A stretch of DNA of 64,000 nucleotides, taken from contig NZ_CP024081.1 of assembly GCF_003033885.1 (NCBI RefSeq), positions 5,391,178 to 5,455,177 on the forward strand, read 5' to 3'. The notes beneath the pieces were generated by a model. That model was not told the DNA's origin and did no database searches. It saw only the letters and a program-made list of their open reading frames with translations. Below, piece after piece: positions 3,266 through 26,686 of the stretch. A program made the position numbers and the translations under genes. How positions within the stretch are numbered: position 1 is the first letter of the stretch; each line of letters starts with the position of its first letter. The stretch is from Pseudomonas rhizophila. GTDB lineage: Bacteria; Pseudomonadota; Gammaproteobacteria; Pseudomonadales; Pseudomonadaceae.

Positions 3266-4261
3266 ATGAATTTACGCGTGCCTTCCATTCGCCATGACGA
3301 TTGCGATGAGCTGGCGGCCCTTTGCAAGGCCGGCGGCGATCCGCTGCGGCTCAATGTATTGCGCGCCTTGGCCAACGATTCGTTCGGCGTGCTGGAACTG
3401 GCGCAGATCTTCGGCATCGGTCAATCCGGCATGAGCCACCACCTCAAGGTCCTGGCCCAGGCGGACCTGGTGGCGACCCGTCGTGAAGGCAATGCGATTT
3501 TTTACCGCCGCGCCCTGCCCCATACCGATCTGCTGGGCGGCAAGCTGCATGCCGCGTTGCTCGAAGAGGTGGATGAACTGGACCTGCCGACAGACGTGCA
3601 GGCCCGCATCGCCCAGGTACACGGGCAGCGAGCCGCTGCCAGCCAGGATTTTTTCGCCCGGGTGGCCGAGAAGTTTCGCGCCCAGCAGGACCTGATTGCC
3701 GGGTTGCCGCAGTACCGTGAAAGCGTCGTGGCGCTGCTCGACAAACTGGGCTTCGAGCCCACCGCCACGGCCATTGAAGTCGGCCCCGGCGACGGTGCGT
3801 TTCTGCCGGAGCTGGCGCGGCGTTTCAGCCAAGTGACGGCGCTGGACAACAGCCCGGCCATGCTCGAGCTGGCACGCCAGGTGTGCGAACGTGAAACACT
3901 GGCTAATGTCAGCCTGCAACTGGCCGATGCCTTGAATGGTGTGAGCCTGCAGGCCGATTGTGTTGTATTGAACATGGTGCTTCACCATTTCGCCGCGCCG
4001 GCCGATGCGCTCAAGCACATGGCCGACTTGCTGCAACCGGGCGGTAGCCTGTTAGTGACAGAGTTATGCAGCCACAACCAGAGTTGGGCCAAGGAGGCCT
4101 GCGGTGATCTCTGGCTGGGGTTTGAACAGGACGATCTGGCCCGTTGGGCCACCGCTGCGGGCCTCGTGCCCGGGGAAAGCCTCTATGTGGGCTTACGTAA
4201 TGGTTTCCAGATCCAGGTCCGCCATTTTCAGCGACCGGCTGGCGACACTCACCATCGGTAA
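3266..4261 (+). CDS. ArsR-family regulator fused to a SAM-dependent methyltransferase domain (SahR-like)
   Basis: 331 residues. Residues about 15-90 form an ArsR winged helix (GDPLRLNVLRAL, then the recognition helix GQSGMSHHLKVL). Residues about 150-320 form a class I methyltransferase with motif I EVGPGDGAF and an acidic post-I residue (ALDNS). It ends 19 bases before metK, so the two probably share a transcript. ArsR proteins next to SAM-cycle genes have been described as SahR, a sensor of S-adenosylhomocysteine; the metK linkage fits that. I infer that the methyltransferase fold acts as the SAM/SAH sensor rather than as an enzyme. No good ribosome site precedes the ATG, so a very short leader or leaderless start is possible. 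Confidence 0.8.
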   Translation: MNLRVPSIRHDDCDELAALCKAGGDPLRLNVLRALANDSFGVLELAQIFGIGQSGMSHHLKVLAQADLVATRREGNAIFYRRALPHTDLLGGKLHAALLEEVDELDLPTDVQARIAQVHGQRAAASQDFFARVAEKFRAQQDLIAGLPQYRESVVALLDKLGFEPTATAIEVGPGDGAFLPELARRFSQVTALDNSPAMLELARQVCERETLANVSLQLADALNGVSLQADCVVLNMVLHHFAAPADALKHMADLLQPGGSLLVTELCSHNQSWAKEACGDLWLGFEQDDLARWATAAGLVPGESLYVGLRNGFQIQVRHFQRPAGDTHHR

Positions 4262-4280
4262 CTTGTAGGAAAACATCGAG

Positions 4281-5471
<1,191 letters not shown>

Positions 5472-5485
5472 AAACTGCGGGTACG

Positions 5486-5522
5486 AAAAGCCCCTGGCGA
5501 CTGGGTCGTCAGGGGCTTTTTC
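5486..5522 (+). terminator. Rho-independent terminator of metK
   Basis: GC-rich stem AGCCCCTGGCGAC / GTCGTCAGGGGCT followed by TTTTTC, 15 bases after the metK stop codon. Confidence 0.88.
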
Positions 5523-5613
5523 ATGTCCGGCCCATACCCATTCAGGGGGGGGTTAAGCCATGCAAGGATTTGTCGCTTGGGCACTTATCTGTGGGAGCAA
5601 GGGGCCATCGACT

Positions 5614-22960: not shown

Positions 22961-23512
22961 TCAGGCTTGGCGTCCCAGCATGCGCTTGAGGGTCGCGTCA
23001 CGATCGATAAAGTGGTGTTTCAATGCTGCCAACGCATGGAGGCCGGAGAAAATTACCAGCGCCCATGCCAGGTAGAAGTGAATCTGGCCGGCAACGTCTG
23101 CCTGATCGGGCAGTCCGGACACCAGCGCGGGTACTTCAAACAGACCAAACACCGGAATCCCGACACCGTCTGCGGTGGAAATCAGGTAACCGGCAATCAT
23201 CACGGCGAACAACCCGAGATACAGTGCGCTATGGCCAAGCTTGGCGCCGACGCGGGTCAGGCGGCCATAGGTTGACAAGGTCGGTGGTGGCGGACTGACA
23301 ACCCGCCAGATCACCCGCAGCAACATGACTGCCAGCAGCACCAAGCCAATGCTCTTGTGCAGGTCCGGCGCGTCTTTACGCCAAGTGCTGTAGTAATCCA
23401 AGCCGACCATCCACAGCCCCAGCGCGAACAGCCCGTACACCACCAGTGCAATGCCCCAGTGCAAAACGATGCTGACCCAGCCATAGCGAGAAGAAGAGTT
23501 GCGTAGCTGCAT
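22961..23512 (-). CDS. Cytochrome b561 family protein
   Basis: Inner-membrane dihaem cytochrome of 183 residues with four helices. Histidines expected to hold the haems are at IVLHWGIAL (helix 1), DLHKSIGL (helix 2) and in the last helix pair ([26 protein letters not shown]). It starts [19 protein letters not shown]. Such proteins oxidise quinol or scavenge superoxide. It is cotranscribed with yceI, whose start is 33 bases downstream. Confidence 0.93.
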
Positions 23513-23851: not shown

Positions 23852-24373
23852 ATGGCTGTTCGTTATACCCATTTTAAAGCTAACGGCTCGCCGCAATTAC
23901 CCCCTAATCAAACGATGTCCCCGGGGCAATACCTAAAATCCAGTAATGGGCGGTTCCGATTGATATTGCAGGCCGATGGAAACTTGGTAATCAAGGACCG
24001 CGAGGCAATTATCTGGACCGCTGGTGATAAACAACCTCACAGCGTCACGTTGTATCCAAGGAGAATGCGTGAACCTCTACAATTCGTCGTCAGCAACAGC
24101 GGCTTTCTTTATGATCCGTCCAGACGGCGATTGTGGATCGCCGAAAGCACCCACAGTACTGATAAGTCACTTTGGTATAACACTTGTATGACCATGCAGG
24201 ACGATGGAAACCTAGTCATTTTTGACATGCGAACAGGCAACCTCTGCTGGGCCCGCTTTGGCTTCGTTCCGGGACGTATGTCGAAGCCGAAGCGGGTCAG
24301 GATCCTGTTTGAGGACGTGCCAATTCATACGTGGTCATTTTCGTTACCCCCCTCTAAAAATTCTCTTAGGTAA
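23852..24373 (+). CDS. Single-domain relative of lectin-like bacteriocins (LlpA/putidacin L1 type)
   Basis: 173 residues, no signal peptide, as in LlpA proteins. Residues about 8-130 are a B-lectin (monocot mannose-binding) domain with two motifs of the QxDxNxVxY type, QADGNLVIK (40-48) and QDDGNLVIF (116-124), both lacking the final Tyr. The middle part DPSRRRLWIAES and the tail WARFGF...HTWSF recall, from memory, the N-domain and the extreme C-terminus of putidacin L1 (about 276 residues, two lectin domains). The second domain, with the functional mannose sites, is missing as if cut out in frame. AAGGTG is 6 bases before the ATG. Base composition is AT-richer than neighbours. It may be a bacteriocin, a degenerate copy, or a competitor of full-length LlpA. 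Confidence 0.75.
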   Translation: MAVRYTHFKANGSPQLPPNQTMSPGQYLKSSNGRFRLILQADGNLVIKDREAIIWTAGDKQPHSVTLYPRRMREPLQFVVSNSGFLYDPSRRRLWIAESTHSTDKSLWYNTCMTMQDDGNLVIFDMRTGNLCWARFGFVPGRMSKPKRVRILFEDVPIHTWSFSLPPSKNSLR

Positions 24374-24379
24374 TGTTAC

Positions 24380-24520
24380 TTAATGGGGTACTCGGACCTG
24401 TGGATCCATATCGCATCTGTACGCCAATTGAGGGTCGTATTTTTTAAGCGTCATACGACCGTCAGTAAAGCCTCTACTGGCGAGCATTATAAAGAACATC
24501 AAAGCTTCTATCGGTTTCAT
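24380..24520 (-). CDS. Small ORF, paralogue of the next one
   Basis: 46 codons, MKPIEALMFFIMLASRGF..., convergent with the lectin gene and ending 6 bases from its stop. The C-terminal half KKYDPQLAYRCDMDP matches PKRDPQLAHKCSIDP of the neighbouring ORF, and both have a GGAGCG ribosome site before ATGAAA. The N-terminus is hydrophobic but lacks the Cys a lipoprotein needs (Phe is at that place), so it may be a decayed duplicate. I know no family for it. Confidence 0.5.
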   Translation of the reverse strand: MKPIEALMFFIMLASRGFTDGRMTLKKYDPQLAYRCDMDPQVRVPH

Positions 24521-24555: not shown

Positions 24556-24717
24556 TTAGTTTACCGAACACTCAGGCTTATATGGATCGATGGAGCATTT
24601 GTGTGCTAACTGCGGATCTCTTTTTGGAATCATCGGAATTGTCAAAGGATCCCGGCATTCGCCATACACACATCCATATATCGAAACCAATACAACCACT
24701 GCCATTAGTATTTTCAT
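24556..24717 (-). CDS. Small putative lipoprotein facing the lectin gene
   Basis: 53 codons starting ATGAAA with AGGAGCG 4 bases upstream. MKILMAVVVLVSIYGC is a short hydrophobic leader ending in Gly-Cys, a plausible lipobox. The mature peptide of about 38 residues has two more inner Cys plus one near the end (GECRDP, HKCSID, PECSVN) and several Pro. It shares the DPQLA(H/Y)(K/R)C motif with the next small ORF, which indicates tandem duplication. Function unknown. Its position beside a bacteriocin-like lectin suggests a protective or accessory role, but LlpA-type bacteriocins have no known immunity protein, so this is speculative. Confidence 0.55.
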   Translation of the reverse strand: MKILMAVVVLVSIYGCVYGECRDPLTIPMIPKRDPQLAHKCSIDPYKPECSVN

Positions 24718-24928: not shown

Positions 24929-26686
24929 TTACTGAGCCTTGGTTTCAGTAGTCGTCGTCGGTTTGACTGCCGGCTTCTTCGCCGGCGGGGCCTTTTTCAC
25001 CGGAGCCTTGGCCGGGGCTTTTTTGGCCGGGGTCTTGGCGGCTGGTTTTTTCACCGCTGGTTTGGTGGTTGCTTTCTTGGCGGGCTCAACTTTCGCCGGG
25101 GCTGGCGCGGATGGTGCCACCGGTGCGGGCGCTGGGGCGGGTGCCGGCACTGGAGCAGGCGCTACCGGCTCCGGAGCCTTGACCGGCTCCGGCTTCTTGT
25201 CGTCATCCGAGCCACCAAACAGGTTGGAGAAAAAATTACCCTTCTTCGCCGCCACCGCACCGGCAGCTGCTGCCGCTGCCACCGGCACGACCTTGGCCGG
25301 TTCAAACGATTTGCCCGCCGCCAGGTCTTCAACCTGGCTGGCTGCCCGCTGACCGCTACGCAACGCGCCCTCCAGAGTGCCCGGATACAAGGTGTCGGTG
25401 TGTTCGCCGGCAAAGGCTACGCGCTGCAACGGCATTTCCCACAGGCGCCAGTACTTGCTGATCTGGCCCGGTCCGAAGGCCAGGTACGCGCCGCCCATGG
25501 ACGGGTCGGTGCTGTAGCGGCGAATTTCATAACCGGTGAAAGCACCCCGGGCCTGCGGGTAAAACGCGTGCAAGCGAATCAGCACCTGATCGGCCATCTG
25601 CTTGTCACCAAAGGCCTGCATCACCCGGGCGTTGTCGCCGGACAGATTGATGACCACATTGGCGCCGCCCTTCATGGCCGGCTCGATCCACATCATGCCC
25701 AGACCGGTGTTGCTGTAGATCTCACCCGACATGCGCGCCTTGCTGTCCCAGACCGGGGTCTTGAACTTGAGCATGATCTGGTCGCGCCAGCCGTAGTTGG
25801 TGCCCTTGATCGCGCCCTGATGCCGGGCGTCCAGGGCCGGGGTCAGCTGGATTTTGTTCAGGGCTCGCAACGGCACCGCCAGCACTACGTAGTCAGCTTG
25901 ATAGCCGACGCTGCCAACCTTGACGGTAACGCCGTCCTTGTCCTGGGAGATGGCCGAGACGGGCGAGCTGGTCTTGATGGTTTTCAGTTGCTTGACGAAA
26001 GCCTGGGCCAACACAGGGCTGCCACCCAGCAGGCGCGCGGCGCGCAGGTCACGGTCGGACACACCACGGTAGACCCGGGTTTGCTGGGCAAAATACAGCA
26101 ACGACAGTCGCGACGGCTCGTCATAGCGGGTGCGGATCTGCTGGTTCACCAACTGCCGCGCGGTGGTCGGCAATTGCAGACGGTCGAGCCAGTTGGAGAC
26201 ACTGATCTGGTCCAGTGCGTGCAACGTGTTGTTGGCCGACGGGTTCTGTGGGTCTTCAATGGAACGGGCCAGGTCGTCCAGGGTGGTTTCGTAACGTTTG
26301 AGGGCCTCAGCCGTGGCCGGTTGCTTGGTCGCCAGGTCAGCGGCGGTGAGGTAGGTGCCGTCGATCAAATAGCTGGGGGTGCGCACGAACTCCGGGGCCG
26401 GTGTGGTGCTCAGCTTGAAGGTCGAGATGTACTTGTTCAGTACCGGCTGAGTTTTTTCGTTGCCGATCCATTCACTGGTGGCCATGCCCGAACGACCGCC
26501 CAGGCTTGGCTTGGCTTCCAGCAGGGTTACCTGCCAGCCTTTGTTCTGCAGCTCGTAGGCCGCCGTGAGCCCCGCCAGGCCGCCGCCGATGACGATCACC
26601 GTCGGTTGCTTGTCCTTGGCCAGCGCACACACGCTGAACAGCCCTATCACCACCAGCGCACAGGCGCGCAGCCAACCAGCAGACAT
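24929..26686 (-). CDS. Exported FAD amine oxidase with an Ala/Pro/Lys-rich histone-like tail
   Basis: 585 residues. Signal peptide MSAGWLRACALVVIGLFSVCALA; then a flavin monoamine oxidase fold with the dinucleotide motif VIVIGGGLAGLTAAYE (about 30-45), the GGRSG loop, and the C-terminal FAD signature VAFAGEHTDTLYPGTLEGALRSGQRAA. From about residue 475 the sequence changes to an Ala/Pro-rich linker and then PAKK/KKAPAK repeats resembling histone H1 or AlgP, with a short segment NFFSNLFGG between. The oxidase substrate is unknown. The tail would be periplasmic if the signal works, and could bind polyanions. Divergent from bioA. Confidence 0.85.
   Translation of the reverse strand: MSAGWLRACALVVIGLFSVCALAKDKQPTVIVIGGGLAGLTAAYELQNKGWQVTLLEAKPSLGGRSGMATSEWIGNEKTQPVLNKYISTFKLSTTPAPEFVRTPSYLIDGTYLTAADLATKQPATAEALKRYETTLDDLARSIEDPQNPSANNTLHALDQISVSNWLDRLQLPTTARQLVNQQIRTRYDEPSRLSLLYFAQQTRVYRGVSDRDLRAARLLGGSPVLAQAFVKQLKTIKTSSPVSAISQDKDGVTVKVGSVGYQADYVVLAVPLRALNKIQLTPALDARHQGAIKGTNYGWRDQIMLKFKTPVWDSKARMSGEIYSNTGLGMMWIEPAMKGGANVVINLSGDNARVMQAFGDKQMADQVLIRLHAFYPQARGAFTGYEIRRYSTDPSMGGAYLAFGPGQISKYWRLWEMPLQRVAFAGEHTDTLYPGTLEGALRSGQRAASQVEDLAAGKSFEPAKVVPVAAAAAAGAVAAKKGNFFSNLFGGSDDDKKPEPVKAPEPVAPAPVPAPAPAPAPVAPSAPAPAKVEPAKKATTKPAVKKPAAKTPAKKAPAKAPVKKAPPAKKPAVKPTTTTETKAQ

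Follow-up and report, generated by a model that had tools for sequence, protein, structure and literature searches.

We analyzed a 64,000-nt stretch of Pseudomonas rhizophila DNA (NZ_CP024081.1; hereafter the window, to whose positions all coordinates refer) at the locus of llpB, a gene encoding a one-domain lectin-like bacteriocin of the kind with which soil Pseudomonas attack their rivals, and of a small lipoprotein gene lying beside it. We propose that the two form a toxin-immunity pair in which the 53-aa lipoprotein would protect the producer, a reading to which we assign a probability of about 0.6. The elements of the proposed pair are as follows.

23852..24373, + strand: llpB, one-domain lectin-like bacteriocin, 173 aa (open reading frame, LLB_putidacin match, 3m7h fit, G+C)
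23873..24232, + strand: LlpA N-domain-like B-lectin (beta-prism) domain, residues 8-127 (profile and PDB matches)
23969..23995, + strand: first sugar-site motif QADGNLVIK, with Lys in place of the final Tyr (from the sequence)
24197..24223, + strand: last sugar-site motif QDDGNLVIF, with Phe in place of the final Tyr (from the sequence)
24248..24265, + strand: WARFGF strand, residues 133-138, equivalent of the LlpA C-terminal strand (LlpA 245-253)
24266..24370, + strand: C-terminal extension of 35 residues, basic and aromatic (from the sequence)
24556..24717, - strand: candidate immunity gene, intact 53-aa lipoprotein, convergent with llpB (profile, linkage)
24380..24520, - strand: second, decayed lipoprotein copy directly after llpB, without the lipid Cys and stopping before the last conserved Cys

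Residues 8-127 of LlpB matched the NCBIfam family LLB_putidacin (E 1.1e-39), and the PDB structure 3m7h, LlpA/putidacin L1 (E 1.5e-36). Against the two-domain LlpA model, the protein scored 136.5 bits compared to a cut-off of 275, and the N-domain and tail stretch alone aligned. These results bear out the initial annotation, which had described an LlpA N-domain joined to the LlpA tail, a missing C-domain, and two motifs lacking their final Tyr. Neither a second lectin domain nor a remnant of one was seen in the non-coding DNA flanking llpB, and this includes the frameshifted downstream domain that the annotation had named as counterevidence. The tail extends 35 residues past WARFGF and ends in ...HTWSFSLPPSKNSLR. 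The G+C content of llpB was 0.49 compared to 0.61 for the window. A search of the same genome for further LlpA or LlpB gave no second match, and a promoter and terminator scan across the llpB locus gave no signal above shuffled sequences. The BamA gene of the genome and rho, a marker for oatA, were both located.

Alignment with 12 relatives showed that W55, W95, and W133 are invariant, and the fold suggests that these residues constitute the LlpB tryptophan triad. The last motif ends in Tyr in 28 of the 35 aligned one-domain proteins, indicating that the Phe found here is a local change; this count follows the alignment, which shows Tyr in two last-motif rows that a pattern count had missed. 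The first motif lacks the final Tyr in 34 of the 35. The LlpB subclass was described in 2019 by Ghequire and De Mot, who reported that two members, from Pseudomonas sp. UW4 and P. fluorescens A506, kill Pseudomonas and that purified LlpB alone is sufficient for killing (PMC6465234). P. fluorescens PGSB 8301 is among the strains that the UW4 LlpB killed (Table 1 of that paper). Published mutants resistant to one LlpB suggest binding to lipopolysaccharide (LPS). All LlpB features that could be tested are present in the window open reading frame, which is a new member of this subclass. LlpA constructs engineered to carry a single domain showed no activity (PMC3585409). In the LlpA crystal, the N-domain is completed through a strand swap, with WARFGF as the swapped strand, so that an N-domain with its tail can form a complete unit, and LlpB is therefore probably one physically whole domain.

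Next to llpB, the intact lipoprotein gene encodes a lipid Cys16 and the core C41-S-I-D-P-Y-...-C50, and a Shine-Dalgarno sequence, AGGAG, lies 5 nt before its ATG. Members of this family measure ~50-60 aa, and no family in Pfam or NCBIfam fits them. A lipobox was found in 89 of 93 distinct copies with no Asp at +2, so that under the usual sorting rule an outer-membrane location is predicted for the lipoprotein. The median ratio of nonsynonymous to synonymous substitution rates (dN/dS) was 0.16 over 270 pairs, indicating a real gene under purifying selection. Homology with Cor (PHROG 1119) was considered and rejected; 9 of 21 members matched, and the matches viewed ended at residues 18-38, mostly within the signal peptide, with E 0.0029 or worse, and did not establish homology of the mature part. 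Likewise, phrog_26373, a group of unknown function, was matched by one member over residues 1-48 (E 0.00045) and by 2 of 21 members at E <= 0.1, and tblastn of the matching lipoprotein member against the phage collection returned nothing.

The distribution of both genes was analyzed in 398 Pseudomonas genomes. Lectin matches occurred in 71, which were classified by length and coverage. Other one-domain genes, to which the initial annotation had looked for comparison, were found: llpB was present in 43 of the 398 genomes (34 intact, 9 decayed), a count that leaves out a second one-domain lineage represented by G363. Two-domain LlpA was found in 25 genomes, one of which (G363) also carries the second-kind one-domain gene, and three weak-match genomes (G051, G065, G281) were counted as neither. 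With the window lipoprotein as the sole query (E <= 0.05), matches were obtained in 49 of 398 genomes, comprising 33 of 43 llpB genomes and 16 of 355 others; in G204 the match lay on a different contig from its llpB. A profile built from 21 copies, partly seeded from llpB loci, was then applied at E <= 1e-6 with 17 candidates scored per genome. It detected the lipoprotein in 43 of 43 llpB genomes and 25 of 355 others (Fisher 2.7e-40, a value that overstates independence because many genomes share ancestry). Below this cut-off lay a fragment in G193, a decayed orphan near cytb561 in G269, and matches confined to the signal peptide.

The lipoprotein gene was adjacent to llpB in all 43 genomes, separated from it by a median of 36 bp and no more than 317 bp, and always on the opposite strand; it was convergent and downstream in 38 (counting G285, where the genes overlap) and divergent and upstream in five. 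Its position beside llpB recurred at three or more unrelated sites. Among genomes of named Pseudomonas species, the lipoprotein was present at 42 of 44 llpB loci, and at 25 of the 27 loci distinct from those of the survey. One exception, L125, is a sequence that ends 114 bp past the toxin match; the other, L118, is taken up below. Some cysN-region loci hold two or three lipoprotein copies, and one locus of P. guariconensis (L122, 1292-4501) holds two llpB genes along with two lipoprotein genes that differ in type. Literature searches, to which supplements and most subscription papers lay outside the scope, yielded no report of a lipoprotein beside llpB, and the word lipoprotein is absent from the main text of the LlpB paper (PMC6465234). 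The llpB-lipoprotein pair therefore looks new as far as these searches show.

At the window locus, the pair is flanked by two resident genes that mark the site and lie outside the toxin unit.

24929..26686, - strand: flavin amine oxidase gene (PF01593), site marker
22961..23512, - strand: cytochrome b561 gene, opposite flank of the site, present in 396 of 398 genomes

The 43 llpB genomes were distributed over the amine oxidase/cytb561 site (28), the cysN region (13), an imelysin/DHOR site (1), and one other site. The published sites likewise adjoin either cysN or a gene for a flavin monoamine oxidase (PMC6465234).

In the survey, the lipoprotein outlasted the toxin. All nine decayed-toxin loci (G015, G125, G160, G204, G290, G292, G299, G367, G385) keep an intact lipoprotein, and it was also intact beside 33 of 34 intact toxins. 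In 24 further genomes, the retrieved stretch of 4.6-11 kb contained the lipoprotein but no toxin gene; 23 of these have no llpA or llpB match anywhere, and G089 has LlpA on another contig. Short, faint toxin fragments are retained at two such loci (G364 and G026). Twelve of the 24 orphans lie at the amine oxidase/cytb561 site and eight share cysN-region neighbors (six directly and two via genes shared with those six), with one at the imelysin/DHOR site, one beside a carbamoyltransferase gene (G086), and two elsewhere. Since the anchor gene cytb561 is present in nearly all genomes, the lipoprotein is not a mere resident of the site. Orphan copies showed a median dN/dS of 0.15 over 17 pairs. Toxin and lipoprotein also co-varied, with a Mantel r of 0.78 (51 loci). 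For loci at the amine oxidase site, r was 0.53, and the partial r given flanking-gene distance was 0.39 (n=32, p 2e-4). The window and loci with a decayed nearest copy or a repeated pair were left out of the co-variation test.

The descent of the one-domain forms was analyzed with a tree of 35 LlpB, 20 LlpA N-domains, and 20 LlpA C-domains, with the root set between the N- and C-domains on the assumption that the two LlpA domains are duplicates. The main LlpB clade (34 proteins) nested, with starred support, within the LlpA N-domains, its neighbor being the N-domain of the G336 LlpA, and the G363 one-domain protein was placed elsewhere among LlpA N-domains. In an enlarged set of 69 rows (14 near-identical rows dropped; L080, L083, and L084 not added), the approximately unbiased (AU) test rejected a single LlpB clade (p 0.0017) as well as a single LlpA N-domain clade (p 0.0013), which suggests that two-domain LlpA probably gave rise to one-domain forms on two or more occasions. 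These trees comprise about 120 columns with long branches, and the tested groups were chosen after the first tree was seen. A 2018 review left open whether llpA derived from llpB or the reverse (PMC6240691); the trees bear on this question, as one-domain forms sit inside LlpA with their probable repeated origin.

Second-lineage one-domain genes and LlpA genes were found in a first scan of viral contigs, and a second scan gave five loci at 31-51% identity. On one viral or prophage contig (L078), a second-lineage one-domain llpB (4001-4516) lies directly upstream of a two-domain llpA (4690-5562). One-domain and two-domain genes also occur together in G363 (L046), whereas llpA and llpB were said never to co-occur in one strain (PMC6465234). 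An LlpB-like match in the P. aeruginosa phage Riah was rejected as LlpB; it is a pyocin L-type gene split across two reading frames. In this phage (OR351070.1; L163, 2950-3773), a CI-like repressor was observed along with the split two-domain gene, which is annotated as a hypothetical protein. Neither the toxin nor the lipoprotein matched in the plasmid search.

Around two-domain LlpA, the lipoprotein was found at one locus. The G336 LlpA (L253, 3000-4196), whose N-domain is LlpB-like, has the same lipoprotein in convergent orientation, and a carbamoyltransferase neighbor is common to this locus and the toxin-less G086 lipoprotein. A general scan for small lipoproteins around 16 LlpA genes, drawn from the 25 LlpA genomes, gave the G336 gene and two implausible open reading frames.

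Colicin operons carry small release lipoproteins co-transcribed with the toxin, and the size and lipoprotein nature of the present product would suit such a bacteriocin-release (lysis) protein letting LlpB out of the cell. The literature also states that most LlpAs have no Sec signal and that the release route of lectin-like bacteriocins is an open question. A lysis protein should, however, share the operon of the toxin and vanish with it. Here, all 43 genomes have the gene on the strand opposite the toxin; selection maintains it without the toxin, and it persists beside nine of nine decayed toxins. In such settings, a lysis gene would bring no benefit or would do harm. These data therefore speak against release, which we regard as quite unlikely. 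It is also unlikely that LlpB needs no immunity and that the lipoprotein is an unrelated passenger on the same mobile stretch. This explanation accords with the published view of the class and with the existence of orphan copies, but a passenger would not be expected to accompany the toxin from one site to another, and adjacency at three or more unrelated sites in two gene orders therefore argues against it. Furthermore, none of the 43 llpB genomes lacks the lipoprotein, its co-variation with the toxin persists once the flanking gene is accounted for, and an LlpA close to LlpB also has it.

Consistent linkage with llpB would equally be expected of a partner that aids the action or display of LlpB rather than conferring immunity. 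However, purified LlpB kills alone (PMC6465234) and toxin-free genomes retain the lipoprotein, making such a helper very improbable. The absence of the C-domain, together with trees suggesting that one-domain forms came from two-domain ones, could be taken to mean that the open reading frame is a broken LlpA or a decoy or immunity form of the lectin. An intact gene of similar length in 34 of 43 genomes with conserved core residues, the killing by two subclass members, and the lack of a C-domain remnant render this explanation hardly tenable. The initial annotation was thus supported in part. Among the functions it had suggested for the lectin, the minimal toxin is the best supported, in line with the published LlpB and its two killers, and no support was found for the lectin as a decoy or immunity factor. 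The immunity candidate is instead a separate, smaller adjoining gene that the annotation did not mention.

We favor the toxin-immunity pair because of the asymmetry after toxin decay, the purifying selection, the co-variation, and the G336 LlpA, the one with this neighbor and the one on the branch next to LlpB. Several observations nevertheless weigh against it, beyond the shared ancestry of the genomes and the partial seeding of the profile noted above. According to the literature, lectin-like bacteriocins do not require a cognate immunity factor, and a variant loop of BamA is said to protect LlpA producers (PMC6240691). In five genomes the lipoprotein is upstream and divergent instead of downstream, G372 combines an intact toxin with a broken lipoprotein, and at L118 the toxin is truncated and no lipoprotein lies within 4 kb. 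Joint transfer could account for part of the co-variation at one site. The lipoprotein was missing at 15 of 16 LlpA loci with wide flanks, profile matches (E <= 1e-6) were limited to 2 of 25 LlpA genomes (adjacent in G336, on another contig in G089), and none was found in the second one-domain lineage (L046, L078-L080), to which the A506 LlpB, a killer, may belong. Not every lectin-like bacteriocin therefore has the lipoprotein. In addition, the G336 N-domain is a long branch, the placement of which is unsure.

Taking these points together, we lean slightly toward true pairs in the major LlpB clade and the nearest LlpA, with an outer-membrane lipoprotein that masks the target, possibly BamA, or traps the lectin. 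LlpB, its N-domain closed by its own WARFGF, would act on related Pseudomonas at their surface, where it would bind LPS and also engage an outer-membrane protein such as BamA, the latter by analogy with LlpA, for which BamA is known. The lipoprotein, predicted for the outer membrane of the producer, would protect it, most likely by masking this target or capturing LlpB. P. capeferrum WCS358 carries the lipoprotein, and its llpB match is not readable as an intact gene; this strain was not killed by either LlpB, nor were most of 49 strains (PMC6465234, Table 1), so that its survival is weakly consistent with immunity. If the proposal is true, the lipoprotein would be, to our knowledge, the first known immunity factor for lectin-like bacteriocins, and one of an unusual receptor-masking kind, and orphan lipoproteins would represent bought-in resistance to rivals. 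Such a partner would change the view of how LlpB producers survive, would allow self-protection to be tested by deleting a single gene, and could help to identify the LlpB target.

Similar to the published LlpBs of UW4 and A506, the window protein has a single B-lectin domain closest to LlpA N-domains and a C-terminal extension (about 32 aa in the published ones, 35 residues here), and its gene has a flavin monoamine oxidase neighbor, a low G+C content, and a genome without llpA; the difference is the partner gene, as none is given in PMC6465234. With LlpA/putidacin L1 (3m7h, 4gc1) and pyocin L1, it shares the N-domain fold, the WARFGF strand, and the tail, whereas the second, sugar-binding C-domain of LlpA is absent from LlpB. 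The lipoprotein itself resembles the immunity proteins of colicins and pyocins in being a small toxin-tied gene that is kept after toxin loss and co-varies with the toxin. However, those proteins work within the cell or in its inner membrane, whereas the lipoprotein is predicted for the outer membrane. Cor of N15/phi80 and Llp of T5 are small superinfection-exclusion lipoproteins that block an outer-membrane receptor, and the present lipoprotein is like them in being a small lipoprotein and in its proposed mode of working.
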